DNA from: Candidatus Accumulibacter cognatus
Lineage (GTDB): Bacteria > Pseudomonadota > Gammaproteobacteria > Burkholderiales > Rhodocyclaceae
Assembly: GCA_013414765.1 (NCBI GenBank)
Contig: CP058708.1
Location: 491,553-555,552 of the forward strand
Reading direction: 5' to 3'
Length of the DNA: 64,000 nucleotides
Shown: positions 5,038 through 63,663 of the stretch, piece after piece
Position numbering within the stretch: position 1 is the stretch's first letter
Layout: every line of letters begins with the position of its first letter
Program-made: the position numbers and the translations under genes
Notes under the pieces: generated by a model
The model's database searches: none
The model's input: only the letters and a program-made list of their open reading frames with translations
What the model was told of the DNA's origin: nothing

Positions 5038-7374
5038 CTACGCGTATTCGATTCCCGTCTGCTGCAGACCGACCAGGTTGATGTTGCTCTGATTCAGCTG
5101 CAATTCCGCGGCAGCCACGCCCAGCGCGCCTGCGCCAAGGGCGCCATTATCGAGTAGATCGACGAACGGCTTGGCTTGTTCTGAAGTCGGTGCAGAGCCA
5201 AACAGGTTATTCCATAGCAGATTGACCACTGCGGAGTTGCTGGTCGCGCCCGCAGCCCTCAGCGCCGCCCCCATCAGGTCCGGGTATGCCATCCCGCCAT
5301 CAAGCAGGCTCAGACCAATGCCGACAAACTGCTTGTTTGACACCGAGGCAGGACTAAATACGACGCCCAGTAGCTTGGCGGTCTTGCCCGCGTTGCCGTC
5401 CAGATCGAGCGCAAGCTTGGCATCGGAGAACTGCAGGCGTTCCACGCCGGTGATGGTGTCGGTCCCGTCTGTCCCGCTCATCGCCAGGACGGTAAAGCCG
5501 GTGCCCGTCTTGGTCAGCGTGTAGTTGGTCCGGCCACCGCCGAACACCGCCGTGTCGATGCCGGTACTGCCGTCTATGGTGTCGTTGCCCGCATTGCCGC
5601 GCAGGACATTGTTGGCGGCGTTGCCGATCAGCGTGTCGTTCCCAAGACCGCCGATCGCGTTCTCGATGACCGAGCCGGGAGCTATGGTGAATTGACCCGC
5701 GCCCACCGTGGACTGGTCACCCGCAATCAGATCCAGCCGCACAGCGCCGGACACGGCGGCGGCATTGAGCGTATCCGTGCCGCTTGAGTCGGTCAGAGTG
5801 GTGTTCGCTACGGAGAACTCATCGGTCAGCACATATTGCGAGTCGGCCGTGATTATCGAGCCCCAGGCACGCACGGTTAGGCTGTTGTAGGTTGCGACCT
5901 CGCCTGCAACCTTATCGGTGAGTTTCAGCGTCCAGGTTCCGGAGCTGGGTTCGCCTAGGAACGCCGTCGATCCGATGGTGAAGGTGGACGGCCAGGAGGG
6001 CTCGGGCGTGCTCATGTCGGGTACGCCACTGACCAGATTGCGGGTCAATGGCTGATCGAATAGCGTCACGGTGGTGCCGCTGGGTGACGTGATGATGGCG
6101 CTCAGCTGGCTGGGGTTGGCGGCAGTGAGATTGAGGTCGAACTCCATCCGATCGATGCGCACGTTGCTGGCCACGCTGGCCGTCACCGTGAGCCCGGCTG
6201 GACTGATGTCGGGGATGGCGGCGCTAGCGGTCGCCGAAACTCCTTCTGCATTTTGCCAGTTGGCGACCGTACCTGCCGGCAAGGTCCAGGATTCCGCGAG
6301 TTGCACGGCCGCCGATACGTCCATCAAGCCATAGCCGAAATCGCGCGAGAAATGCATACCGCCCAGGTTCCAGTCGCTTGCGTGCGTCTGGAACCAGCTG
6401 GCATTGGTCGCGTCCACTTTGCGCGCCGTGAGCGCCAGGATGGTCGAGATGTCGCGAAAGCCCAGAGTCGGATTCGCCTGCAGCATCAGGGCCGCTGCGC
6501 CGCCCACCATCGGACCTGAGTAGGAGGTACCCTGGTTCTGATAGGCATAGTCTCCTGCCGCGCCCTCGGTGGTATTATAGCCGGCGGTGCCCTGCACGTC
6601 CGCCGATGAGATGCCAAAACCCTCATTCAAAGATTGGTCGCCGCTGGACACGCCCCCCGGCGCGGTTACCAGTAAGCTCGCACCCGGAGTTGAATAGGGC
6701 GTGGGCGCGCCAGTCTCCGTGATTGCTCCGACCGCGATCGTTAGCTTGTTCCCGGTGAAATTGGACATGGCGGCGTCCGCATTGTTGCCACGCTCGTTCC
6801 CGCCCGACACTTCAATCACCATTCCCTTGCCGCCACGGGCTTCGCTCGCGGCGCGAAGCAGAGCCGCACCCCATGCCTGGTCGGACAGTGATCCCGAAGC
6901 CCCGAAATTCTCGGCGAACGCGGGATCTAATCCCCAGGAGTTGACGCTGACCCCCGCGCCCGCGGCCAGATTGGCCAGAAACAGATTGGCAGTATTGGTG
7001 CCGGCCGCGCCAAAAGCAAGCCCCGGAACGATCTTGGCTTCGTATGCAACACCAACGCCACCAATGCCGTCGTTGGCGACCATTCCGACGATGGAACCCA
7101 CCACGGTGCCATGCGAGTTGGCCGCGCCGACGAATCCCTGCCCGACGGTGTCGCGCCCCGAGTCGTAGGCGAGGTTGGTCAGCAGATTACCCACCAGATC
7201 AGGATGGGCAAGATCCATGCCATCGTCGTTGACGGCCACGATCACACCCTTGCCGGTGTACTTGTCCCAAGCCGACTTCACATTGATGTCGAGGCGCGAA
7301 GTTCCGCCGCGCTGGCCGGTGTTGACTAGGTACCACTGCGACGAGAACAAGGGATCGTTGAACGTGATCGACAT
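5038..7374 (-). CDS. Secreted subtilisin-like serine protease with P domain and RTX repeats
   Basis: The 778-residue protein starts with an S8 peptidase domain: catalytic Asp in VAVNDDGMDLAHPDL (about residue 50), His in NSHGTVVGS (about 88) and Ser in QGTSYSGPMVGG (about 284). A proprotein-convertase P domain follows (about 385-515), then calcium-binding RTX nonapeptides (GGLGNDTLIG, RGNAGNDTIDG, about 575-615). The C-terminal ~150 residues, ending GLQQTGIEYA, resemble the DUF4214-type tails of secreted proteins. There is no N-terminal signal peptide, so type I secretion is likely (inference). The start ATG 7374 has GGAGAG about 7 bp upstream. It lies between transposon relics and a duplicated cbbO end, which suggests acquisition. 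Confidence 0.85.
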   Translation of the reverse strand: MSITFNDPLFSSQWYLVNTGQRGGTSRLDINVKSAWDKYTGKGVIVAVNDDGMDLAHPDLVGNLLTNLAYDSGRDTVGQGFVGAANSHGTVVGSIVGMVANDGIGGVGVAYEAKIVPGLAFGAAGTNTANLFLANLAAGAGVSVNSWGLDPAFAENFGASGSLSDQAWGAALLRAASEARGGKGMVIEVSGGNERGNNADAAMSNFTGNKLTIAVGAITETGAPTPYSTPGASLLVTAPGGVSSGDQSLNEGFGISSADVQGTAGYNTTEGAAGDYAYQNQGTSYSGPMVGGAAALMLQANPTLGFRDISTILALTARKVDATNASWFQTHASDWNLGGMHFSRDFGYGLMDVSAAVQLAESWTLPAGTVANWQNAEGVSATASAAIPDISPAGLTVTASVASNVRIDRMEFDLNLTAANPSQLSAIITSPSGTTVTLFDQPLTRNLVSGVPDMSTPEPSWPSTFTIGSTAFLGEPSSGTWTLKLTDKVAGEVATYNSLTVRAWGSIITADSQYVLTDEFSVANTTLTDSSGTDTLNAAAVSGAVRLDLIAGDQSTVGAGQFTIAPGSVIENAIGGLGNDTLIGNAANNVLRGNAGNDTIDGSTGIDTAVFGGGRTNYTLTKTGTGFTVLAMSGTDGTDTITGVERLQFSDAKLALDLDGNAGKTAKLLGVVFSPASVSNKQFVGIGLSLLDGGMAYPDLMGAALRAAGATSNSAVVNLLWNNLFGSAPTSEQAKPFVDLLDNGALGAGALGVAAAELQLNQSNINLVGLQQTGIEYA

Positions 7375-53966: not shown

Positions 53967-54095
53967 ATGAATACCTTAGCATTATGTAGCTCGCCCATGA
54001 GAAGATCAGCTGTCCGGGCCACCATTCTGGCCCTTGGCCTGGTGTCCGCGCAACCTGCGACGGCGGGGACTGCCGGTGGCTGGACACGCAGCTAG
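53967..54095 (+). pseudogene. 5' end of an exported-protein gene truncated by an IS3-type element
   Basis: ATG 53967 has GAAGGAAGG 5 bp upstream. The frame encodes MNTLALCSSPMRRSAVRATI followed by LALGLVSAQPATA, a clear signal peptide, then GTAGGW before a TAG at 54093. It meets the IS3-type transposase sequence at about 54085-54105, so the rest of the gene has been displaced or lost. A plus-strand end (LFLQDIQEMNQAPVVFRWKK, stop about 55266) beyond the element might be its remnant, but this is uncertain. Confidence 0.5.
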
Positions 54096-54797
54096 ACCGT
54101 AACGGACATAGGCCTTGAGATACCCCTCTTCGTACTTGACGCTTTTCCACAGGCGCTCGACGAAGACGTTGTCCCGCCAGGACCCCTTGCCGTCCATACT
54201 GATCCGGATGTCGTGCGCCTTGAGCAAACCGGTGAATTCGCCGCTGGTGAATTGGCCACCCTGATCAGTGTTGAAGATCTCCGGGCAGCCGTGGCGGTGG
54301 ATGGCTTCCCGCACCGCGTCCAGACAGAAGTCGGTCGTCAAGGTGTTGGAAAGCCGCCAGGCAAGGACCCGCCGCGAGAACCCGTCGATCACGGCGAACA
54401 GGTAGAGAAAGCCTCGGCGCATCGGGATGTAGGTGATGTCCGCCGCCCACGCTTGATTGGGCCGCTCGATCGCGAGGCCGCGCAGGAGGTAGGGATGGAT
54501 TTCATCCCCCCGCTGCCGACGAGAGGTGTGGGGCTTCCGATAGAGGGCTTCGATCCCCATGCGCGCCATCAGGGTGCCGATGTGCTTGCGCCCGGCCTCG
54601 AAGCCCTCGGGGCGGAGTAGATCGCGCAACATGCGGGCGCCGGCGAACGGGTGATCAAGATGTAACTCGTCTATCCGGCGCATCAGCGCCAAGTCCTCCG
54701 CTGAGACCTCGCGGGGCGTGTAGTAGGCGGTCGAACGCGCCAGCCCCAGCAGGGAGCACTGGTGCAATACGGGAAGCTTGTGGGTGCGGTCAATCAT
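54006..54797 (-). pseudogene. IS3-family transposase OrfB, truncated 3' end
   Basis: The catalytic integrase core is present: AWAADITYIPMRRGFLYLFA (first Asp), IFNTDQGGQFTSGEF (second Asp) and DNVFVERLWKSVKYEEGYLK (Glu). The preceding HTH_21-type segment includes HPFAGARMLRDLLRPEGF. After LKAY the usual ending (YNxRRPHxSL) is missing and is replaced by an unrelated Arg-rich stretch derived from the antisense of the exported-protein gene. The element is therefore cut at this end and probably inactive. It overlaps OrfA by 4 bp. Confidence 0.82.
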
Positions 54798-55099
54798 CGT
54801 CTTGCGCTCAGCAGGCCCGCCTTGGTGAGCGCATGTTCTAAAAAATCGTTTTCCAGCGTCAACTGGCCGATCTTGGCGTGCAGCTTCGTCAGGTCAGGAT
54901 CGCTGTTCGTCGGGCTGCCGGTGTCCCCAAAAACCTGCACCGCACGCTCCGTCAGTTGCCGCTTCCAGTCCGTGATCTGATTCGGGTGAAGGTCATACTG
55001 CTGCGCCAGCTCCGCTAGCGTCTTGTCGCTCTTCAGCGCCGCCAGGGACACTTGTGCCTTGAATGCCGGTGTGTGGTTCCGTCTCGTCCTTCTTGTCAT
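54794..55099 (-). CDS. IS3-family transposase OrfA
   Basis: A 101-residue helix-turn-helix protein (FKAQVSLAALKSDKTLAELA, then QYDLHPNQITDWKRQLTERA) with a C-terminal leucine-zipper-like segment (KIGQLTLENDFLEHALTKAG). It pairs with OrfB through a 4-bp overlap, where a -1 frameshift normally makes OrfAB. The element's intact end lies upstream at about 55184 (TGGCCCCGGAAATTCGGACA read on the minus strand). No matching opposite terminus was found near 54090. Confidence 0.87.
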   Translation of the reverse strand: MTRRTRRNHTPAFKAQVSLAALKSDKTLAELAQQYDLHPNQITDWKRQLTERAVQVFGDTGSPTNSDPDLTKLHAKIGQLTLENDFLEHALTKAGLLSARR

Positions 55100-55315
55100 G
55101 CTCTTGCTCCTGTTGGGGCTGCTTCCGCAGCCGTTCGTGGGGGCAAGGCTACCACTTATCCTCCTGTCCGAATTTCCGGGGCCACCTCTTCCTCCAGGAC
55201 ATCCAGGAAATGAATCAGGCACCCGTGGTTTTTCGTTGGAAAAAATTTGATAGGAAAGCCGCCTGATCTGTAGCCCATTCAATGTAACAAACTGCTAGCC
55301 CTGCGCGCGAAGCGT

Positions 55316-56698
55316 TCAGACGGTTACCTCACACTGCCTCCAGCACACCTTGACCGCTTCGTGGGTCGGCCCGCAGGAGGCAAACCAGATCGGGCAGGCA
55401 GCGGCCTGCTCCAGCCGGTCGAGCAGCGACGCCGCTACAGTCAGCATGCGCGCCTGATAGACCGGACGTACCCGGAAGAGCAGGTCCGTCAGCGCTGCCT
55501 GGTGTGCCAGGTCTTCTCTGGCGGTGCACGGCAGGCGTGTCACGCGCCCGGCCGGCGCCAGCCAGCCGGCAGCCCTGCTCTCTTCTCCGGGCACGGTCGT
55601 CTCGTAGGCCTCGCACCAGCGCAGCCCGGGCACATGCCGGAAAGCATCGAGGTGACTGACCAGCAGGCCGTCGAGACGTCCGCTGGCAGCCAGGGCGTAG
55701 CGCAGGAGCACGCCGTCCGAGTGGCCGCGCCGGAAGCGGCCCTGCCAGCCCTGGTCGCGGTTATGCGGTTCCGGGAGAACGTCCAGTCCGGCGTCGGCCG
55801 TCGGGAAGGGACCCGCTCCGTGCCGCGTGAGATAGGCACGCAGGACCCCGAGGTGCTCGACCCGGGCAGGGCAGCCGTAGTCTGCCGCGACCGCTTCGAC
55901 GGCGCGCGGGTGGATGCTGCTCCAGGTGGTGTGCGGATGAAATCCCCGCCATTCATCGAGAAGAACGCCCTGTGCCCCCTCGAACAAGACCGTCCCGGGG
56001 CGCGCCAGGCGCGCGGCGATTCTGTCTGCCGACGATGGGGGAACATCCCGCAACAGGTTCTGGATATTTTCCAGCCAGGCTTCGGCAAGCTGCGCGTCGG
56101 CGAGCAAACGATGCTCGGCCGCGATTGCTGCCGCATTTGCGGCCACTTCGCCCAGGGCAGCGAACGCGGGCAGGAGATCGCGGCGAATGGCCTGCAGTTT
56201 CTGCATCGCCAGCGCGGGTCGGGCCAGATCGCCGTAATGCAGCGTGTGCTCAGGGTGAGCGAGTGCATGGCGAACGGTTTCGCCGACCCCGACGCCGCAG
56301 CTTCCGTGCGCCGCGGCGCCACGAGCCAGCTCGCGCAGACGACCGGCGGCCTGATGGAAAGGCGTATTGACCCGACAGCGCCGATCGATGAACAGGCGCT
56401 CCAGGCCATCATCGACGCCTATCGACTGCAGCCGGGAATGCTCGACCAGAAGCGCGCCGGGATGGACGACCACCGGATAGGCGAGAACGGTCGCCACGCC
56501 CGGCACCAGCGTCCCGGCGGCGAATTGCGAGAAGGTATGCTGCCGGCCGTCGGGCAGAACGACGTTGTGCCCGGCCTGCGCACCGCCGTTAAAACGGACG
56601 ACCGTGTGTACCTGCCAGCGCCGGCACAGGGCGTCGGTGAACACGCCCTTGCCACAATCGCCGAAACCCAGACCGAGCAGGGAGACCAGGCGGGGCAT
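55316..56698 (-). CDS. Divergent adenylosuccinate synthetase (PurA) paralogue
   Basis: A 460-residue PurA-fold protein. The nucleotide loop reads LGLGFGDCGKGVFTDAL: Asp14 of the canonical GDEGKG is kept, but Glu is replaced by Cys. His44 in NGGAQAGHNVVL is conserved, as is VLFEGAQGVLLDE. The base-recognition region TKLDVLD is replaced by SHLDAF, and the usual aspartate-binding VTTRPR-type loop is not visible. It may therefore use another substrate. It is separated from the vWA gene by the repeat copy R1 and preceded by an AAGGGGAAGGG element, which favours ATG 56698. Confidence 0.75.
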   Translation of the reverse strand: MPRLVSLLGLGFGDCGKGVFTDALCRRWQVHTVVRFNGGAQAGHNVVLPDGRQHTFSQFAAGTLVPGVATVLAYPVVVHPGALLVEHSRLQSIGVDDGLERLFIDRRCRVNTPFHQAAGRLRELARGAAAHGSCGVGVGETVRHALAHPEHTLHYGDLARPALAMQKLQAIRRDLLPAFAALGEVAANAAAIAAEHRLLADAQLAEAWLENIQNLLRDVPPSSADRIAARLARPGTVLFEGAQGVLLDEWRGFHPHTTWSSIHPRAVEAVAADYGCPARVEHLGVLRAYLTRHGAGPFPTADAGLDVLPEPHNRDQGWQGRFRRGHSDGVLLRYALAASGRLDGLLVSHLDAFRHVPGLRWCEAYETTVPGEESRAAGWLAPAGRVTRLPCTAREDLAHQAALTDLLFRVRPVYQARMLTVAASLLDRLEQAAACPIWFASCGPTHEAVKVCWRQCEVTV

Positions 56699-56723
56699 GC
56701 GCACAGGCCCTTCCCCTTAGTGT

Positions 56724-56989
56724 GCAAGTCGCATCAGCGACTCACGAACCTCCCCTCCCCCCACTTGCGGGAGCGAAGGCGGGGTTACGCGGAGCACTGC
56801 TCCGCGCCGCCGCAGCCGGCCCGCGATGCAGCGCGGGCCGCGGGAGGAGTCGGGGGGTGCGATGGGGTATTCGCGGAGCATGCTCTGCGCCAATCGAACG
56901 ATTCCGGCGTGCAAGCCGGAATGCGCCCTGCAAGGGAGGGAAACGGTCATGACTGTCATGATCGGAGATACCGGCAACAGCCATGACCG
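56724..56989 (-). repeat. Dispersed hairpin repeat, long copy (R1)
   Basis: Read on the minus strand it starts directly after the vWA-gene stop with CGGTCATGG and ends near TGAGTCGCTGATGCGACTT. It aligns along its whole length with 63404-63663 (plus strand). Internal hairpins include 56901-56922 (ATTCCGGCGTGC / GCAAGCCGGAAT) and 56818-56839 (GGCCCGCGATGC / GCAGCGCGGGCC), plus GCGGAGC-ACT-GCTCCGC near 56790. It separates the vWA gene from the PurA-like gene. Confidence 0.8.
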
Positions 56990-57967
56990 TCAGGAAAAAA
57001 GGCGCTTCCACCAATCGGGTTTGCCGATCGCGGTCGAAGTCGGATGCGTGTGGATGCGCTTCGGCGCGTCCGGGTCGATGAGATCAGCATAAGACTGCAG
57101 CGCGCGGATGGTGGCGGCAATGCGATCACGCGGGGTGCCGTTGGCATGCAGGACATCGGCGAGCGCGTCGACACCGCGGAGGGCACCCTCGGTCAGACCG
57201 ACGATTGCTGCCGCGACCGTACAGGTGTCCACATGCGATTCCATGCAGATCACCTGATCGCCGAGCACCTCGCGCCAGCGCGCTTCACAGTTTTGACGGC
57301 GTTGCCGATCCGGAATCAGGAAGAAGAGATGCCAGGATTCGGCGGCAGCGGCGACGACCTCCTCGAGCGCAATGTCTTCGTCGAGCCTCTCGCCGATCAA
57401 GGCTTCGATCTGATGGCGGGAAACGACCGGATAGGGATGTTCATCGCCGGTCATGAACAGATAGCCACGTTTTCTGCGCTTCACCCAGCAGTCGAGGTCG
57501 GTGTGTTGCGCGAGCACGTAGAAAGCCAGCTCGTAGCTCTCGCTATTAGAGCCCCCGCCTCCCCCTTCGAGGTAACTCCAGGTGAGCCACTGGTCGATCA
57601 GTTCCGCGGTGGTTTCGAACTGCCCAACCTGCAGCGGCGCGCCATCCGAGGTGGCGTCGCCAATTGCCATGAACATCACCTGCGGGTCGGGAACCCGGCA
57701 ATCGGTCAGCAACTTCATGAAAGTCGGCAGATCGCGGCGTGCCAGGTATTCTGGAATATTCCCCATCGAGCCGGTGACATCGAGCGCAAAGACGATGCCA
57801 AGCGAGTTCGGATGTTCGGCGCTGTCGCGCGCTTCGCGAACCGACAGACCCTTGGGGTCCATCAAGGCGTGACAGCCGCGTTGTTTGAAGACTTCGGCGC
57901 GTGACAGCGCCGCCCGATCCGTGGTCAGCGCCGCATGCGCGCTGTGCGAATAACTACCGTAGCCCAT
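56990..57967 (-). CDS. vWA-domain protein in NAD cassette
   Basis: A 325-residue cytoplasmic von Willebrand A protein. The MIDAS region is GIVFALDVTGSMGNIPEYLA (about residue 60), with MFMAIGDATSD and YLFMTGDEHPYPV as the other metal-side loops. A Gly/Ser-rich turn (YLEGGGGGSNSESYELAFYV) is notable. No membrane span is present. It follows the kinase-like gene by 9 bp. A vWA protein next to a kinase-like protein recalls TerY-kinase pairs, but no phosphatase or Ter gene is present. Its specific role is unknown. Confidence 0.75.
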   Translation of the reverse strand: MGYGSYSHSAHAALTTDRAALSRAEVFKQRGCHALMDPKGLSVREARDSAEHPNSLGIVFALDVTGSMGNIPEYLARRDLPTFMKLLTDCRVPDPQVMFMAIGDATSDGAPLQVGQFETTAELIDQWLTWSYLEGGGGGSNSESYELAFYVLAQHTDLDCWVKRRKRGYLFMTGDEHPYPVVSRHQIEALIGERLDEDIALEEVVAAAAESWHLFFLIPDRQRRQNCEARWREVLGDQVICMESHVDTCTVAAAIVGLTEGALRGVDALADVLHANGTPRDRIAATIRALQSYADLIDPDAPKRIHTHPTSTAIGKPDWWKRLFS

Positions 57968-57976
57968 GATGTTCTC

Positions 57977-58954
57977 CTAGCGGCAAGTCGCCGAAGTGGG
58001 GTTGAAAGGGATGAATTTCGGCGGCCCGAAAGAGGCGCGAGCGGCCGCGACCAGCGCCTGGTCAAGCCCGCGCGCGCCGACCTCGGCACACCAGGCGGCG
58101 TCTTCGCTGCTGCGTTCCAGCAAATCCACCAGGGGAGGAGGCGTACTGCGCCCGCAGGTGGGCAGCGTGTCGCCTCCGCACAAGAGCGCACGCAGGGTCC
58201 ATGCCGATTGCCGCAGATCGCGGGCAATCGCTGCGTCATCCGCTCCAGGCATGGCGCGCGACCAGCCGACGAGGAGCACGCCGTGATCGCGCGGGTGCAC
58301 GAGCCAGTGCTCGGGCCTCAGGTCGCCATGAGTCCAGTCGCTGTCGTGCGCAAATGCCAGCACTTCGAGGACTCGCCGCCAGATCCAGACAGCGTGCCGG
58401 GGCTCGATTCCGTTTGCTGCGTAACGCAAGACCTGCGCCAGGCTACCCCAGTATCCGGAAGGATGGCGGAGCAGCAGCCCTTCCCGCTGGTTCCCGCAGG
58501 CTGTTTCGCCAACACCGCTGGCAATCGCTTGCGGCACCCTTTGCGAGAAGTACGCCGCCTCTGCCAGCGTACTCGCCTGCAGGGCGCGCAGGATCGCGGC
58601 CTCGGCTGCAAGCACGCCGGATCTCGTACCGGCGTGCACCAGTTTGACGATCACCCGCTCCGGAAAGGGACCCATGCGTTCAGCAAGATGGACCTCGGCA
58701 TGTTCGCCGACACCCACCCGCTTGAGCAATTGGTAGCGTTGCCCCTGCCAGCGCAACACCGGCAAGGTCGATGGGTAGCCGGCCAGGGCCTGCGCACGAA
58801 CTCGCGCGGCTGCTTCGCGCAAGGGTGCCGCCTGCACGAGCGACTTGTTGCGGGTAACCGTCGCGCTGCAATAAGGACAGACCACCATGCGCCAGCTCGC
58901 CTGTCGGGGCAGTGCCGCACCGCATTGCGGACAGGTGAGTGCGGTGAAGGACAT
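57977..58954 (-). CDS. Zinc-ribbon plus kinase-like protein (possible pseudokinase)
   Basis: A 325-residue protein. Residues 8-33 form a zinc ribbon (CPQCGAALPRQ and VVCPYCSATV). A kinase-like domain follows: glycine loop RVGVGEHAEVHLAERM, a candidate ATP-binding Lys in RVIVKLVHAG, and a catalytic-loop-like WTHGDLRPEHWLV. In the loop the Asn expected after the Asp is not in place, and the DFG Asp is lacking (VLLVGWSRA), so catalysis is doubtful. ATG 58954 is 10 bp after the NadM-Nudix stop. It probably acts with the vWA protein encoded next. Confidence 0.65.
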   Translation of the reverse strand: MSFTALTCPQCGAALPRQASWRMVVCPYCSATVTRNKSLVQAAPLREAAARVRAQALAGYPSTLPVLRWQGQRYQLLKRVGVGEHAEVHLAERMGPFPERVIVKLVHAGTRSGVLAAEAAILRALQASTLAEAAYFSQRVPQAIASGVGETACGNQREGLLLRHPSGYWGSLAQVLRYAANGIEPRHAVWIWRRVLEVLAFAHDSDWTHGDLRPEHWLVHPRDHGVLLVGWSRAMPGADDAAIARDLRQSAWTLRALLCGGDTLPTCGRSTPPPLVDLLERSSEDAAWCAEVGARGLDQALVAAARASFGPPKFIPFNPTSATCR

Positions 58955-58964
58955 CGTGCCAGGC

Positions 58965-59990
58965 TCAGGGATGAAGGGACAGGAAGTGGTCGAGCAGATT
59001 GAAGTGATCTTCAAAAAAGCGACTTTCCAGGGCCCTGAGTTCTGCGATCGGAGTCCACCTGGCTCGCGCCGCATCGTCAGCGCCGCTGACCTCGGGCAAG
59101 CGGCAGTCGCCGAGATCGAACCAATGCGCATGCGTGATCGTTCGCCCGCGCAGACTGCGGTCGGGATGATCGAAGACGGCAACGCCTTGCAGGGCCACTT
59201 CAAGGGTGGAATCGAGCAGGCCGAGACCGGTTTCTTCGCGCAGCTCACGAATCGCGCCTTGCAGGACGCGCTCGCGCGGCTCGAGAAAACCGCCCGGCAC
59301 GGCCCACAAGCCCTTTCCCGGCAAACGCCCACGTTCGACGAGCAGGACATGCGCGGACGCGGTGACGACCGCATCCACGGTCACGAAAGGACCGCTTCCC
59401 CAGACCCGCCGGTTCTCCTCGAGGGCCAGATGCTCGCCGCGCAGTGGGTGATAATGCGGCAAGCGGGTCCAGCCCTTCAGATAGTGGACGATCGGCGTCG
59501 GCAGCAGCCCGCCGAGCAACGCCTGCGTCGCCGGCCAGTCTTCGCTCTCGAAGTAGATCTGGCGGATACTGGTCGCGTCGATCTCGTCAAATTTCGGTAC
59601 GGCGACGAACTGCCAGCGCGGAAAGCGCTGCAGGTATTTGCTGGAGGCATCCTTGAGGTAGCCGACGAGGGCAATCCGCGCGCCAGGGGCACTGTATTCC
59701 TGCACCGCGGCGACGACCGCCTCGCCCCAGCGCCGATCGTCGTAGTAGTCGCGAATCGGCAGAAAACGGACACGCTCGCGCGTCGCGTCGTCGAGCGTGC
59801 TGCCGATCATGGCGGCGCGCTCCTCCCAGGTAAACGGGTTCTTGACATTGCGCGCGGCGTGCGCCGATCCGAGCAGGACGATCACCTGCCCGGCGCTTTG
59901 CAGGGTTCTGGCGAGCAAAGCCGCATGCGCATTGTGGAAGGGCTGGAAACGGCCAATCAGTACGGCAATGTCGAATCGGTCGGGGGTCAT
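58965..59990 (-). CDS. nadM: Bifunctional NMN adenylyltransferase / Nudix hydrolase
   Basis: A 341-residue two-domain enzyme. The N-terminal nucleotidyltransferase has IGRFQPFHNAHAALL and DATSIRQIYF, characteristic of NadM. The C-terminal Nudix domain has the box GGFLEPRERVLQGAIRELRE followed by ETG. The first half makes NAD from NMN and ATP; the Nudix half of such fusions typically hydrolyses ADP-ribose, a NAD breakdown product. It lies 15 bp after nadE within the pncB-nadE-nadM unit. Confidence 0.92.
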   Translation of the reverse strand: MTPDRFDIAVLIGRFQPFHNAHAALLARTLQSAGQVIVLLGSAHAARNVKNPFTWEERAAMIGSTLDDATRERVRFLPIRDYYDDRRWGEAVVAAVQEYSAPGARIALVGYLKDASSKYLQRFPRWQFVAVPKFDEIDATSIRQIYFESEDWPATQALLGGLLPTPIVHYLKGWTRLPHYHPLRGEHLALEENRRVWGSGPFVTVDAVVTASAHVLLVERGRLPGKGLWAVPGGFLEPRERVLQGAIRELREETGLGLLDSTLEVALQGVAVFDHPDRSLRGRTITHAHWFDLGDCRLPEVSGADDAARARWTPIAELRALESRFFEDHFNLLDHFLSLHP

Positions 59991-60005
59991 TGAATGGGCT
60001 CCTGG

Positions 60006-61712
60006 TCAGTCATAGCAAGCGGCAATCGGCATCTGCCGGCCGCTGCCGAAAGCGCGCCCGCGCAGGCGCAGAATCGGCGGGGCCTGGCGTCGCTTGTATT
60101 CGTTGCGCGCGATCATGCGCCGTATTCTCGTCACCAGCGCCCGGCCCTCGGCGTTGGCCAGCAGTTGCGCATAGGCGGACTCGACTTCCGCGTGCTCGTC
60201 GGCACCGAGGCGCTCACCCTCGATCAGCACCTTGAGGATCGTGTCCAGGATCGGATACGGAGGCAGGCTGTCGGTGTCCCGCTGACCGGGCGCGAGTTCT
60301 GCCGAAGGCTCCTTGTCGAGGATCGCTCGCGGGATCACTTCGCCATCGGCGCATTCGTTGAGGTGCCGGCTCAAGGCAAAGACTTCGGTCTTGTAGAGGT
60401 CACCGATCAAACCCAGACCGCCGTTGGTATCGCCGTACAGCGTGCAATAGCCGACCGAGATTTCGCTCTTGTTGCCGGTGGTGAGCAGCAGGTGGCCATA
60501 ACTGTTGGAATACTCCATCAGGATGGTGCCGCGCACCCGCGCCTGCAGATTCTCGAGCGCCAGGCCGCGCAAGGGGCCGCCGCAGGCCGCGGCGAAGCCC
60601 GCCGCGAACTGGCTGACGAGGTCGTGGATCGGATGCTCGATCAGGCGGATTCCGAGCCTGCGGCAGAGCACTTCGGAGTCATCAACGCTGCCTGGCGTAG
60701 AGAAAGACGAGGGCATGGTGATGGCGACGACATGGTCCGCGCCGAGCGCCTCGACGGCGAGCGCCAGCGTCAGCGCGCTGTCGATCCCGCCCGAGGAGCC
60801 GACGACCGCGCTGCTGAAGCCGCAGCGGCGAGCGTAGTCGCGCAGGCCGAGAACGATCTGCCGGCGGTAGAACTCCATCACCGGCAGACCTTCGGCTGCG
60901 ACTGGCGGCAGGGCTTCCCCGGTGGCCGACAGGAAATTCGTGCCGTCCCATTGCAGCGTGCTCACCGCTTCGACAAAGCGCGGCGCCTCGAACACCACAC
61001 CGGCAGCCGGAGAAACGGCGAACGAGGCGCCGTCGAAGACCAGTTGATCGTGCCCGCCGATCTGGTTCACATAGACCAGCGGGATCTGGTGGCGCTGACT
61101 GGCCGCCGCGAAGAGACGATGGCGCTGTTCGCGCTTGCCGATGTTCGACGGACTGGCGTTGATCGTCACCAGCAGATCGGGACGGGCATCGGCGAGGCGG
61201 CTAAACGGGTTGACCGCATAGTCGCTGCCGGCGTCGTTCCAGCCGTCTTCGCAGATCAGGAAACCGACCTGCGTGCCGTCGACGCGCAGGATCCGGGCAA
61301 CATCCGGTCCCGGTTCGAAATGGCGGCGCTCGTCAAAAACATTGTAGGTCGGCAGCAACTGCTTCGCGTATCTGAGTAAAAGCGCCCCGTCGCGAAGCAC
61401 GAGCAGACAGTTTTCGAGCGGCTTGCCGGGTCCGCTGCGCTGCATCGGTGCGCCGACCACCCAGCACAGGCCTGGTGTCGCGTGGCTGGCGGCGAGCAGT
61501 GTGTCGAGCCCCGCCGCCGCGCGCTCGATGAAATCGGCTTCATCGAGCAGGTCGCCGGGCGGGTAGCCGGTCAGGGACAGTTCAGGAAAAACCACCATCT
61601 GCGCCTGCTCGGCATGCGCCTGCGCGGCTGCGCGACACATCAGGCCGATGTTGCCGTCGATGTCGCCGATCGTCGGATTCAACTGCGCGAGGGTAAGGCG
61701 AAAGGCATTCAT
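60006..61712 (-). CDS. nadE: Glutamine-dependent NAD+ synthetase
   Basis: A 568-residue enzyme with an N-terminal nitrilase-type glutaminase domain (catalytic Glu in [15 protein letters not shown], Lys in [20 protein letters not shown], Cys in [11 protein letters not shown]) and a C-terminal NAD synthetase domain (PP-loop [16 protein letters not shown], and [20 protein letters not shown]). It amidates deamido-NAD using glutamine. ATG 61712 overlaps the pncB stop by 4 bp. A long upstream extension of the frame is not conserved. Confidence 0.95.
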
Positions 61713-62929
61713 GGCCTTTCCACCGGATGATTGAAAACCTGCCGCAGGTAGGCCAGGAAGGTGCCGTCCTCGCACAACGTCTTGCCCGGAGAATCGGAAA
61801 GCTTGGCGACCGGCTGCCCGTTGCACGCCATGATTTTCATGACCACGTTCAGTGCCTGATGCGGCGTATCGTTCGAGAGATCGGTACCGATGCCGTAGGA
61901 GGTTTGCACACGTCCGCGCAAACGCCGGTACAGATCGACCGCACGCGGCAGGTTCAGGCCATCGGAGAAAACCAGGCGCTTGCTCATCGGGTCGATGTGC
62001 AGTTGCGCATAGTGGCGCAAAGCCTTTTCCGCCCATTCGAGGGGATCGCCCGAATCGTGGCGAAGGCCGTCGAACAGCTTGGCAAAGTACAGATCGAAAT
62101 CGGCGAGAAAGGCATCCATGCCGACCACGTCGGTCAGTGCGATGCCGAGATCACCGCGATACTCCTGCACCCAGGCCTCGAGCGCCGCTTTTTGAAAATC
62201 GCGCAGACGAAAGCCGAACGCCTGGTAAGCCTGCAGGTACTCGTGCGCCATCGTGCCGATCGGCGTCAGCCCCAGCTTCTTCGCAAGGTAGACGTTGGAA
62301 GTGCCGCGAAAATGCTCCGGCACCTCGCTGGCCAGCGTGCGCACGACTTCCTCGTGCCAGGCAGCGGAATAGCGCCGGCGCAGGCCGAAGTCGAAGAAGA
62401 TGAAAGGCTCGGTCGCCGACAGCAGCGCCTGCCGCTCCGATTTCAGGAATCCGACCTTTGCCTGCAGCCGTTCGCGCGCCACGGCAAGGATCGAGGCATC
62501 GGTCGATAGCCGGCGAAAATAGAGCTCATTGACCATGTAGAGCACAAAAATCTCGAATGCCATGACATGCACCAGGGGACCGCTGGCGATGACCCGCAGA
62601 TGCTCGCCGTCGGCGCGCGTGCTGATGAAGCGGCGCTGGAAGCGAAAAACCGAGAGGAAATCGACGAAGTCGCTCTTGATGAAGCGCAGGCTGCGCAGAT
62701 ACGCGAGTTCATCGTCGCTGAAGGTCAGGGTACACAAGTGGTCGAGTTCGGCATCGACGTCGGCCTTGAGCTCCGCCAGTGGATAGACCGGCCGGTTCCG
62801 GCAGAAAAAGGCGTATTCGGCCTGCGCTCCCGGGTGGCTGTGCAGCAGCGCCTGCCACATCGTGAACTTGTAGAGATCGTTCTCCAGCAGGCTGCGAACG
62901 ACGGGGGGATGAATTTTCTGCCAGGTCAT
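61709..62929 (-). CDS. pncB: Nicotinate phosphoribosyltransferase
   Basis: A 406-residue enzyme that makes nicotinate mononucleotide from nicotinate and PRPP, the entry step of the Preiss-Handler salvage pathway. Family blocks are [60 protein letters not shown] and [28 protein letters not shown] lies about 5 bp before ATG 62929. It is the first gene of the minus-strand NAD cassette and overlaps nadE. Confidence 0.95.
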
Positions 62930-62978: not shown

Positions 62979-63005
62979 GTAGACTACTTCGTTGCATTTT
63001 GCAAC
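62979..63005 (-). promoter_or_regulatory. Palindromes upstream of pncB, possible operator
   Basis: GTAGACTAC (62979-62987) and GTTGCATTTTGCAAC (62991-63005, 6-bp arms) lie 50-75 bp upstream of the pncB start in an AT-rich stretch. Their position fits an operator for a NAD-responsive regulator. No such regulator gene is in the window, and the sequence does not clearly match a site I know. Confidence 0.4.
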
Positions 63006-63055
63006 TAACAGACAAAAATATTTTCTCTGCTCATTCCCTCCTTATGAGGGTAACG

Positions 63056-63316
63056 TCAGTTCGGGATAAGTTTGGTGAAGGGTGAGAGCCGGCGGAAGTC
63101 CTGAAGTGATAGTCCGGGTTTGTCGGGCATGAAGCAATAGGCGATGGGGCCGGCCAGCAAGTTGACGGCGAAATGGAGGGGCGAGCGATGGCGGGTGCAC
63201 TCGATCTGATCGAGGTCTTTCAGTTCGTCGATGACGGTTTCCACGAGGACTCGTTGCCGCCGCATGGCCGGGTCAAAGGGATCGAGGGCGACGGACTTCC
63301 CATTTTTTCGGATCAC
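63056..63316 (-). pseudogene. IS982-family transposase C-terminal fragment
   Basis: The 86-residue reading frame matches the end of IS982-type transposases: RRQRVLVETVIDELKDLDQI, then ECTRHRSPLHFAVNLLAGPI and AYCFMPDKPGL. The N-terminal two thirds, with the first catalytic Asp residues, is absent. It lies directly upstream of the NAD cassette and next to repeat copy R2. Confidence 0.8.
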
Positions 63317-63403
63317 CCGTATTCCGGGGGTGCTCTATCGAAACTGAGCGGCATACAATACGCTTTTCGGCGCCTATCGCCGGGAGGTCTGGATGCTCGC
63401 TAA

Positions 63404-63663
63404 CGGTCATGACTTTTTCAGACAACCTCGATCATGGAAGTCATGACCGTTTCCCTCCCTTGCAGGGCGCATTCCGGCTTGCACGCCGGAATCGTGCGAT
63501 GGGCGCAGAGCATGCTCAGCGAATTCCCCATCTCACCCTCCGACCCCACCCACGGCCCGCGCTGCATCGCGGGCCGGCGGCGTGGAGCGGTGCTCCGCGA
63601 AGCCCCGCCTGCGCCCCCGCGAGTGAGGAGAGGAGATTCATGCGTCGCTGACGCGACTTTGAC
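63404..63663 (+). repeat. Dispersed hairpin repeat, long copy (R2)
   Basis: Full-length relative of R1 in opposite orientation, starting CGGTCATGACTTTTTCAG and ending TGCGTCGCTGACGCGACTTT. It contains the same series of hairpins, for instance 63471-63492 (ATTCCGGCTTGC / GCACGCCGGAAT) and GGCCCGCG-CTGCAT-CGCGGGCC near 63562-63583. R1 and R2 flank the NAD cassette from the vWA gene to pncB as inverted copies. Confidence 0.8.

Follow-up and report, generated by a model that had tools for sequence, protein, structure and literature searches.

The 64,000-nucleotide stretch of Candidatus Accumulibacter cognatus DNA analysed here (the window) carries six minus-strand genes in the order pncB, nadE, nadM-nudix, kinase-like, vWA and PurA-like. 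Their open reading frames were checked in the window, and their coordinates (55316-62929) confirmed the gene order and spacing proposed in an initial annotation. The gene pncB (61709..62929), encoding nicotinate phosphoribosyltransferase (NF003704, 530 bits against a cut-off of 379), overlaps by 4 nt with nadE (60006..61712), which encodes an NAD synthase with an amidohydrolase domain (NF010588, 579 bits against 479); a second strong NAD_synthase match was found in the same genome (G000:C1:175754). After a gap of 15 nt follows nadM-nudix (58965..59990), whose product is a nucleotide adenylyltransferase carrying a fused Nudix domain (matches to CTP_transf_like and NUDIX), and was recognised by NF003786 with 310 bits, below the equivalog cut-off of 397. 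To consider these three genes a full nicotinate-to-NAD route presupposes that NaMN is used by the NadM-type enzyme. The kinase-like gene (57977..58954) begins 10 nt further on, followed after 9 nt by the vWA gene (56990..57967) and, after 285-291 nt depending on the start chosen for purA, by the PurA-like gene (55316..56704 from a GTG start, or to 56698 from an ATG start). All three proteins of this second half, hereafter the module, matched phage families in PHROGs, namely a kinase (1e-14), a family of unknown function (vWA, 7.4e-49) and an adenylosuccinate synthetase-like family (1.5e-66).

The vWA-purA gap contains a 183-nt dispersed repeat (56811..56993), in agreement with the repeat that had been claimed ahead of the last gene. 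Its final 4 nt fall inside the end of the vWA gene, it has 47 genome-wide matches, many of them partial, and an inverted 88% copy is located upstream of the six-gene run (63400..63582). In locus L012, whose vWA protein is 98% identical, vWA ends at 6559 and the purA frame starts at 6572, leaving a gap of only 12 nt from which the repeat is absent. With a gap this short, insertion is the simplest account of the repeat, and purA would belong to the six-gene run.

The kinase-like, vWA and PurA-like genes are one conserved, recurrent unit of bacteria and phages and not a local accident. Among the best 80 of at least 570 vWA matches in genome contigs (79 loci counted), a PurA-like gene was found near vWA on the same strand in 76/79 loci and a kinase-like gene near vWA also in 76/79; the corresponding values for the best 80 of 324 viral matches were 75/80 and 31/80. 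The triad is not obligate, since the kinase gene is absent next to vWA-purA in L194-L197 and L043. The module was present in 3 of 149 other genomes of the family and in 5 of 397 other genomes of the phylum, after a partial match (G163, 8.7e-4) had been dropped as spurious, as well as on plasmids and in phages. L014 and L199 are the same contig, and L040 and L193 apparently are too. Phage records with vWA numbered 206 (188 Mycobacterium, 10 Rhizobium and 6 Vibrio) and those with a PurA-like protein 223 (189, 10 and 6 among them, respectively), compared by genus totals and not record by record; ordinary purA genes might account for the remaining PurA-like records, e.g., those from Listeria and Salmonella. 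Phage Tonenili carries its kinase, vWA-family and PurA-like genes side by side. According to the available part of PMC9476963, all C1 mycobacteriophages share genes for a serine/threonine kinase and for an adenylosuccinate synthetase of the PurA-like type; the two are given there as individual genes, and no connection to a module, vWA or NAD is mentioned. In the literature searched, that on NrtR regulons included and with few subscription journals among it, no description of the module appeared among the top-ranked matches. Neighbour clustering was dominated by antisense and shadow ORFs, and the clusters used were the Pfam-checked ones; a 120-aa phage gene also recurred as a neighbour cluster beside the module.

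The initial annotation had linked the module to NAD and named its recurrence with pncB, nadE and nadM across unrelated genomes as what would support this. Such co-occurrence was observed at 5/79 genome-contig loci (best 80 of at least 570) plus L198, and the only hosts in which NAD-salvage genes adjoined the module were Rhodocyclaceae and a single MAG of the Oxalobacteraceae, so that the direct link to NAD genes is narrow; NadM-like genes were also present beside the module in two viral contigs. What does reach beyond close relatives is adjacency to a protein of the NrtR type, detected in 7/79 genome-contig loci (best 80 of at least 570), 3/80 viral loci (best 80 of 324), 6/7 plasmid, 0/3 phage-record and 6/10 G loci, i.e., 22 loci counted and 21 distinct. 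The models for NrtR, PncA, PncB, NadE and NadM were built from sequences of this same analysis, and the NrtR seeds match by construction, so Pfam and NCBIfam served as outside checks on NrtR. The NrtR of L191 covers 63% of the model and that of every other NrtR-adjacent locus at least 94%, and the Pfam NrtR winged helix scored above its cut-off in 10 of the 12 NrtR-type proteins scanned, being absent in L006 and below the cut-off in L007. NrtR lies next to the module in alpha- and betaproteobacteria and in three viral contigs, and an NrtR-like Nudix protein in actinobacteria; in the Massilia locus L028 the order is nrtR-SPFH-kinase-vWA-purA. Among seven genomes from draws made evenly by phylum or class, NrtR was adjacent in 4/7, two of these belonging to one genus. 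Of ten other module genomes inspected, six had NrtR matches that spanned most of the NCBIfam model and stayed below its 400-bit cut-off, and in 6/6 one such match was located beside the module. The NrtR gene of the window's own genome (L201, 6390-7064; NrtR_WHD 2.9e-22) is 1.7 Mb away from the module, which makes the adjacency 6/7 when counted. On a vWA tree of 119 of 179 rows (97% thinning for NrtR-bearing rows and 80% for the others, quick method, no bootstrap), the NrtR label changed at least 10 times, 7 of them forced by starred branches. As judged from these neighbourhoods, the NAD link is real and regulatory, and not universal.

An NrtR-operator-like palindrome of 21 bp, TTAGTTG-N7-CAACGAA, was identified upstream of pncB (62988..63008, minus strand); the M. 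smegmatis NrtR operator is described in the accessible portion of PMC6800001 as a palindrome with a 7-bp spacer. The pattern TTAGTTGCANNNNGCAANNAN occurred without mismatch at two places in the 5.17 Mb genome, in front of pncB and in the nrtR-pncA interval, and its backwards control once, a comparison that is partly circular because the pattern was derived from the same two sites. Copies with one mismatch (of 14) were found in L012, L013, L014, L015 and L043, and three in L198, and the palindrome was weak or negative in 9/17 regions, including L028, L033 and most of the alphaproteobacterial ones. With an NrtR gene in the genome and this candidate operator before the pncB operon, the locus resembles the NrtR salvage regulons, in which NrtR stands beside pncA, pncB, nadE or nadM with a palindromic operator, but it adds the vWA/kinase-like/PurA-like module; the main text of a proteobacterial NrtR survey, as far as available (PMC5343134), has neither "PurA" nor "adenylosuccinate".

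These data might also be read as a free-standing mobile system, serving in stress or in conflicts between phage and host, that came to lie behind the NAD genes of Rhodocyclaceae, in which case NrtR would be one of several regulators and NAD not the module's business. The patchy spread over few genomes of family and phylum, plasmids and phages agrees with this, as does the finding that 70/79 genome-contig loci (best 80 of at least 570, 28/79 with less than 8 kb on one side) had neither NrtR nor pncA, pncB, nadE or nadM within the 8.5 kb of flank; sampled copies from Variovorax, Myxococcota, Verrucomicrobia and Chloroflexi had no NAD neighbour. However, we consider it rather unlikely, given that NrtR is adjacent in six of the seven module genomes that hold it, own genome included, and that this adjacency appears in separate parts of the tree, often with divergent promoters.

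The PurA-like protein matched Adenylsucc_synt (PF00709, 6e-57), and plain PurA membership was rejected (purA equivalog 153 bits against a cut-off of 402, altered substrate sites), as was PurZ membership (NF038379, 32 bits against 300); no PADLOC model matched. With residue numbering checked against 1ade, D13 and K16 were kept in 165/165 rows having a residue there, and H41 and Q224 in 167/167; we take D13 and H41 to be catalytic and Q224 to bind the base. The IMP-phosphate and aspartate sites are not retained: N38 is replaced by Q in 166/167 rows, T301 by Q in 167/167 and T129 by C in 147/167, R143 is mostly lost, and R303 sits in a one-residue indel and is alignment-dependent, the window's protein having Arg at both R303 and R305. 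At the position of K331, a residue of the guanine site in PurA, 164/167 rows carry H or C, which speaks against the reading favoured below. A literature search on active-site residues found none. The protein thus shares with canonical PurA and phage PurZ the family match, the Gly-rich phosphate motif, the catalytic Asp/His and the base Gln, but differs in its phosphate and amino-acid sites. It is predicted to be probably a GTP-dependent ligase, and the changed site residues make it likely that it acts on something other than just free IMP and aspartate. A back-up adenylosuccinate synthetase, refilling AMP/ATP for NAD resynthesis under regulation by the vWA and kinase-like proteins, would be in keeping with the Asp, His and Gln whose roles we assume, and with the consumption of ATP by NAD synthesis; yet it seems improbable, since a canonical purA is present elsewhere in the genome (3772503-3773771), the equivalog score falls far below its cut-off and nearly all rows have other residues at the substrate sites, although the window's own protein still has Arg aligned with R303 and R305.

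The vWA protein had no Pfam, NCBIfam or PADLOC match at E 0.1, and PDB sequence searches with its profile or the single sequence gave nothing at E 1. Among the listed Foldseek matches of its AF2 model (pLDDT 93.5), integrin beta-I and vWF A domains predominated (best E 5e-6, with query TM values of about 0.3-0.45). In an alignment of the window's protein with 76 of 105 thinned relatives (157 total), the MIDAS residues D63, T or S at 65, and S67 were each present in 77/77 rows and D104 in 74/77, so that the model is that of a vWA fold with a MIDAS.

Pfam matches of the kinase-like protein as a single sequence were weak only, and its single-sequence AF2 model was unusable (pLDDT 38.8), whereas profile and fold searches supported the kinase family (profile A4, best PDB E 4.5e-14); a weak match to the PD-T4-6 kinase was obtained in PADLOC (best 6.1e-8). 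Among 56 aligned rows (55 of 66 thinned relatives, 102 total, plus the window), the beta3 Lys was kept in 52, the HRD Asp in 17 and the DFG Asp in 8, the window's protein keeping the former Asp and lacking the latter. An active protein kinase was rejected on this basis, and the family appears mostly catalytically degenerate in the rows aligned. The zinc ribbon (CPQC...CPYC) at the N-terminus of the window's protein is present in at least 32 of 43 bacterial rows, a lower bound because start-codon choice places some row starts too late; in 11 of 13 phage rows it is replaced by a J-domain-like HPD head, which, judged by eye, also occurs in alphaproteobacterial and actinobacterial plasmid relatives. 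A TerY-P-type metal-sensing phosphorylation switch, to which the initial annotation had likened the vWA-kinase pair, is very improbable, because, although the triad in the part of PMC11090510 available also joins vWA to a kinase-like protein with a zinc ribbon and a vWA-PP2C-kinase-like run does lie behind the genome's nrtR-pncA, the six proteins include a PurA-like enzyme and no PP2C, the ribbon is N-terminal and not C-terminal, phage rows carry the HPD head and the DFG Asp is missing in 48/56 rows.

We therefore tentatively favour, among these readings, an NrtR-controlled NAD-stress operon with the PurA-like ligase as its output. The six genes would form a single operon, repressed by NrtR in a manner responsive to ADP-ribose; NAD breakdown would raise ADP-ribose, NrtR would leave the palindrome before pncB, and the NAD-salvage enzymes would be made together with the three module proteins. 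The PurA-like protein would be the active enzyme of the module, using GTP to activate a hypoxanthine-type base at its 6-oxygen and attaching an amine, and we infer that the vWA protein, which would bind partners in an Mg-dependent manner, and the degenerate kinase, whose head is a Zn ribbon or J-domain-like, may act as adaptor or sensor. A more specific and unlikely version is that the module is an independent system common to bacteria and phages, and that an N6-substituted purine is made or repaired by it not on IMP but on a dinucleotide or conjugate, e.g., an inosine form of ADP-ribose or NAD, when NAD is destroyed, for instance during infection; the 5'-phosphate contacts would then have changed because such a substrate has no free 5'-monophosphate. 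The ARG-centred anti-ADP-ribosylation systems, as presented in the accessible sections of PMC9503650, share a Nudix-HTH regulator, a vWA protein predicted as chaperone and an ADP-ribose setting, but the window's six proteins include no ADP-ribosylglycohydrolase or phosphatase and have PurA-like and kinase-like proteins instead.

Collectively, these results suggest an undescribed NAD-stress response beside NrtR, in which a module found in bacteria of several phyla as well as in 188 mycobacteriophage records is connected with a sensor of NAD breakdown that is already known. The entry points they offer are ADP-ribose as candidate inducer, a candidate operator, and an enzyme with a conserved catalytic core but changed substrate sites. 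If its true product is a new nucleotide conjugate, the biology of NAD-based stress and of phages and their hosts would be extended.

Six genes were found on the minus strand from 62929 to 55316 (pncB, nadE, nadM-nudix, kinase-like, vWA and PurA-like), confirming the strand, order and spacing given by the initial annotation. Family searches confirmed the identities of pncB, nadE, the NadM-nudix fusion and the PurA-like protein, and returned only weak single-sequence matches for the kinase-like protein, whose kinase assignment was upheld by profile search. The vWA protein had no match in Pfam, NCBIfam or PADLOC; its assignment holds by predicted fold (pLDDT 93.5), and most of the solved matches listed are integrin beta-I or vWF A domains. 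In PHROGs, phage families matched the kinase-like, vWA and PurA-like proteins, all three. A 183-nt dispersed repeat, with 47 matches in the genome, many of them partial, lies between vWA and the PurA-like gene (56811-56993). A second, inverted copy is located upstream of pncB (63400-63582), and the two bracket the stretch from pncB to vWA. In the near-identical relative locus L012, whose vWA is 98% identical to that of the window, the vWA-to-purA distance is 12 nt; the closest relatives among the matches listed in the vWA search were Candidatus Accumulibacter MAGs. By eye only, transposase-like frames or remnants flank the run on both sides (54006-55282 and 63056-63316).

An alignment of eight vWA sequences, used as the query, retrieved at least 570 relatives from the genome collection and 324 from the viral collection. 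The matches most like the window were kept (79 and 80 loci, respectively), and some of their contigs stop a short way from the module. Among these best of at least 570 and 324, a PurA-like gene lay near vWA on the same strand in 76 of 79 genome and 75 of 80 viral loci, and a kinase-like gene lay near vWA in 76 and 31 of them, respectively. The kinase-like, vWA and PurA-like genes are a module. None of the known kinds of system tested matched this module taken alone. Side observations concerned further neighbours. In eight viral or phage loci, among them L095 (13346-14869), a TROVE/Ro60-like gene follows vWA-purA at a distance of about 3.5 kb (label checked in Pfam on one of the eight). In 33 viral loci, vWA has upstream of it a conserved gene encoding about 120 aa (e.g. 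L116 9630-10001; no Pfam match in the one copy scanned). Myxococcota copies have a second vWA-family gene beside the module (L068, L071-L073, L075, L080, L082-L084, L086, L087, L090).

The kinase-like alignment has 56 rows, made up of the window and 55 of 66 thinned relatives. Of these, 52 kept the beta3 Lys and 51 the alphaC Glu, but just 17 had the HRD Asp and 8 the DFG Asp; the window protein has the HRD Asp and lacks the DFG Asp. Among the 43 bacterial rows, at least 32 carried an N-terminal zinc-ribbon pattern, and among the 13 phage rows, 11 had an HPD-type stretch resembling a J-domain; alphaproteobacterial and actinobacterial plasmid members looked J-like by eye. All 77 vWA rows kept D63, S67, E143, Y145, D175 and T or S at position 65, and 74 kept D104. 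The PurA-like alignment comprised 167 rows, with numbering verified against 1ade; the residue roles are those we presume for PurA. D13 and K16 were kept in all 165 rows with a residue there, H41, E221 and Q224 in 167/167 and D333 in 166. Substitutions were N38 to Q (166/167), T301 to Q (167/167), T129 to C (147/167) and K331 to H or C (164/167). R143 was mostly absent in the 167 rows, and R303 was alignment-dependent (Arg in the window in one alignment, variable in other members). A canonical purA is present elsewhere in the genome. The simplest inference from these residues is that the PurA-like protein would be a GTP-dependent ligase with a retained catalytic core and altered substrate sites.

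Several NAD-salvage genes together adjoined the module in five of 79 genome_contigs loci (L012-L015 and L043), and also in L198 and L199, the latter on the contig of L014. All are from Rhodocyclaceae except one Janthinobacterium MAG, whose NAD genes are divergent and beside whose module no kinase gene was found. In L014, L015 and L198, a divergent nrtR is followed by pncA-pncB-nadE(-nadM)-kinase-vWA-purA. A nadM-like gene occurred in two of 80 viral loci (L103 and L170). Speaking against the NAD link, no NrtR or NAD-enzyme match was found within 8.5 kb in 70 of 79 genome_contigs loci, although 28 of the 79 have less than 8 kb on one side. The strongest rival explanation, a mobile module indifferent to NAD, is less likely than not in our estimate. 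Hosts include Pseudomonadota, Myxococcota, Verrucomicrobiota, Chloroflexota and one Acidobacteria MAG, and the module is also carried by Rhodococcus and Tsukamurella plasmids. Vibrio, Rhizobium and Mycobacterium phages carry vWA and PurA-like genes, those of Mycobacterium alone among these with the kinase-like gene. The vWA family occurred in 206 phage records (Mycobacterium 188, Rhizobium 10, Vibrio 6) and the PurA-like family in 223 (189, 10 and 6), with three main groups in common and nearly equal counts, the records not being paired one-to-one. Spread is patchy, with the module in 4 of 150 family genomes, own included, and 7 of 398 phylum genomes, counting the own and one partial match later dropped.

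An NrtR-type protein, often encoded divergently, adjoins the module more widely than NAD-salvage genes do. It is present in 7 of the 79 genome_contigs loci, 6 of the 7 plasmid loci, 3 of the 80 viral loci and 6 of the 10 G loci (those from the searched genomes), and in none of the 3 phage-record loci. The Pfam NrtR winged helix was above cut-off in L008, L014, L028, L043, L101, L170, L190, L194, L195 and L196; of two actinobacterial loci, L007 was under it (18.8 vs 27 bits) and L006 had no match. In Massilia (L028 7892-9013), an SPFH/Band 7 protein lies between nrtR and the kinase gene. Seven module-bearing genomes came from draws made evenly by phylum or class; NrtR was adjacent in four (G442, G292, and G192 and G402 of one genus) and not in three (G527, G634, G695). 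Six of ten other module-bearing genomes searched had a long NrtR match, beside the module in 6/6; in the window's own genome, NrtR lies 1.7 Mb from the module. On the vWA tree the NrtR-adjacency label must change at least 10 times, and starred branches force 7 of these changes.

Upstream of pncB lies an NrtR-operator-like palindrome, TTAGTTG-N7-CAACGAA (62988-63008). A looser pattern had just two mismatch-free occurrences in the 5.17 Mb genome, this one and one between nrtR and pncA. Copies with one mismatch occur in L012, L013, L014, L015 and L043, and L198 has a copy with three. Shuffles matched the observed score in at most 1/300 for eight of 17 regulatory regions (own nrtR-pncA, window, L014, L015, L043, L044, L194, L198), and more often for the other nine; in 22 control regions upstream of NrtR-less kinase frames the best match had 4-8 mismatches. 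Because the pattern was derived from these sites, these results show consistency and are no independent test. According to PMC6800001, the M. smegmatis NrtR palindrome has the same 7-bp spacer, ADP-ribose releases that NrtR from DNA, and NAD tightens binding by Corynebacterium NrtR.

The own-genome nrtR is followed by a divergent pncA-like gene and then vWA, PP2C and kinase-like genes (the whole at L201 6390-10925; G000:C1:2262000-2275000), the last labelled by eye and lacking a Pfam match. This run behind a NAD regulator resembles TerY-P, and its vWA and kinase-like genes are predicted to be a second such set within the same NrtR regulon. Its vWA had a close match solely in its own genome among the 150 family genomes. 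On a Variovorax megaplasmid, an NrtR winged-helix gene points away from genes for PncA-like and vWA proteins, with macro-domain, Nudix and NAD-kinase genes nearby; this island (L213 5570-11816) encodes a macro domain, RecX, a NUDIX hydrolase, NrtR-type, PncA-like and vWA proteins, a deoxyribosyltransferase-domain protein and NAD kinase.

Collectively, the NAD-linked signalling or stress system proposed by the initial annotation is upheld in part, through regulation, with NrtR beside the module, and not through shared NAD enzymes. As found, the cluster is a NAD salvage operon of the NrtR type that carries an additional module, and we tentatively read it, at somewhat short of even chances, as an NrtR-controlled NAD-stress operon that would include a PurA-like ligase, its mechanism past the regulatory link being one that we infer.
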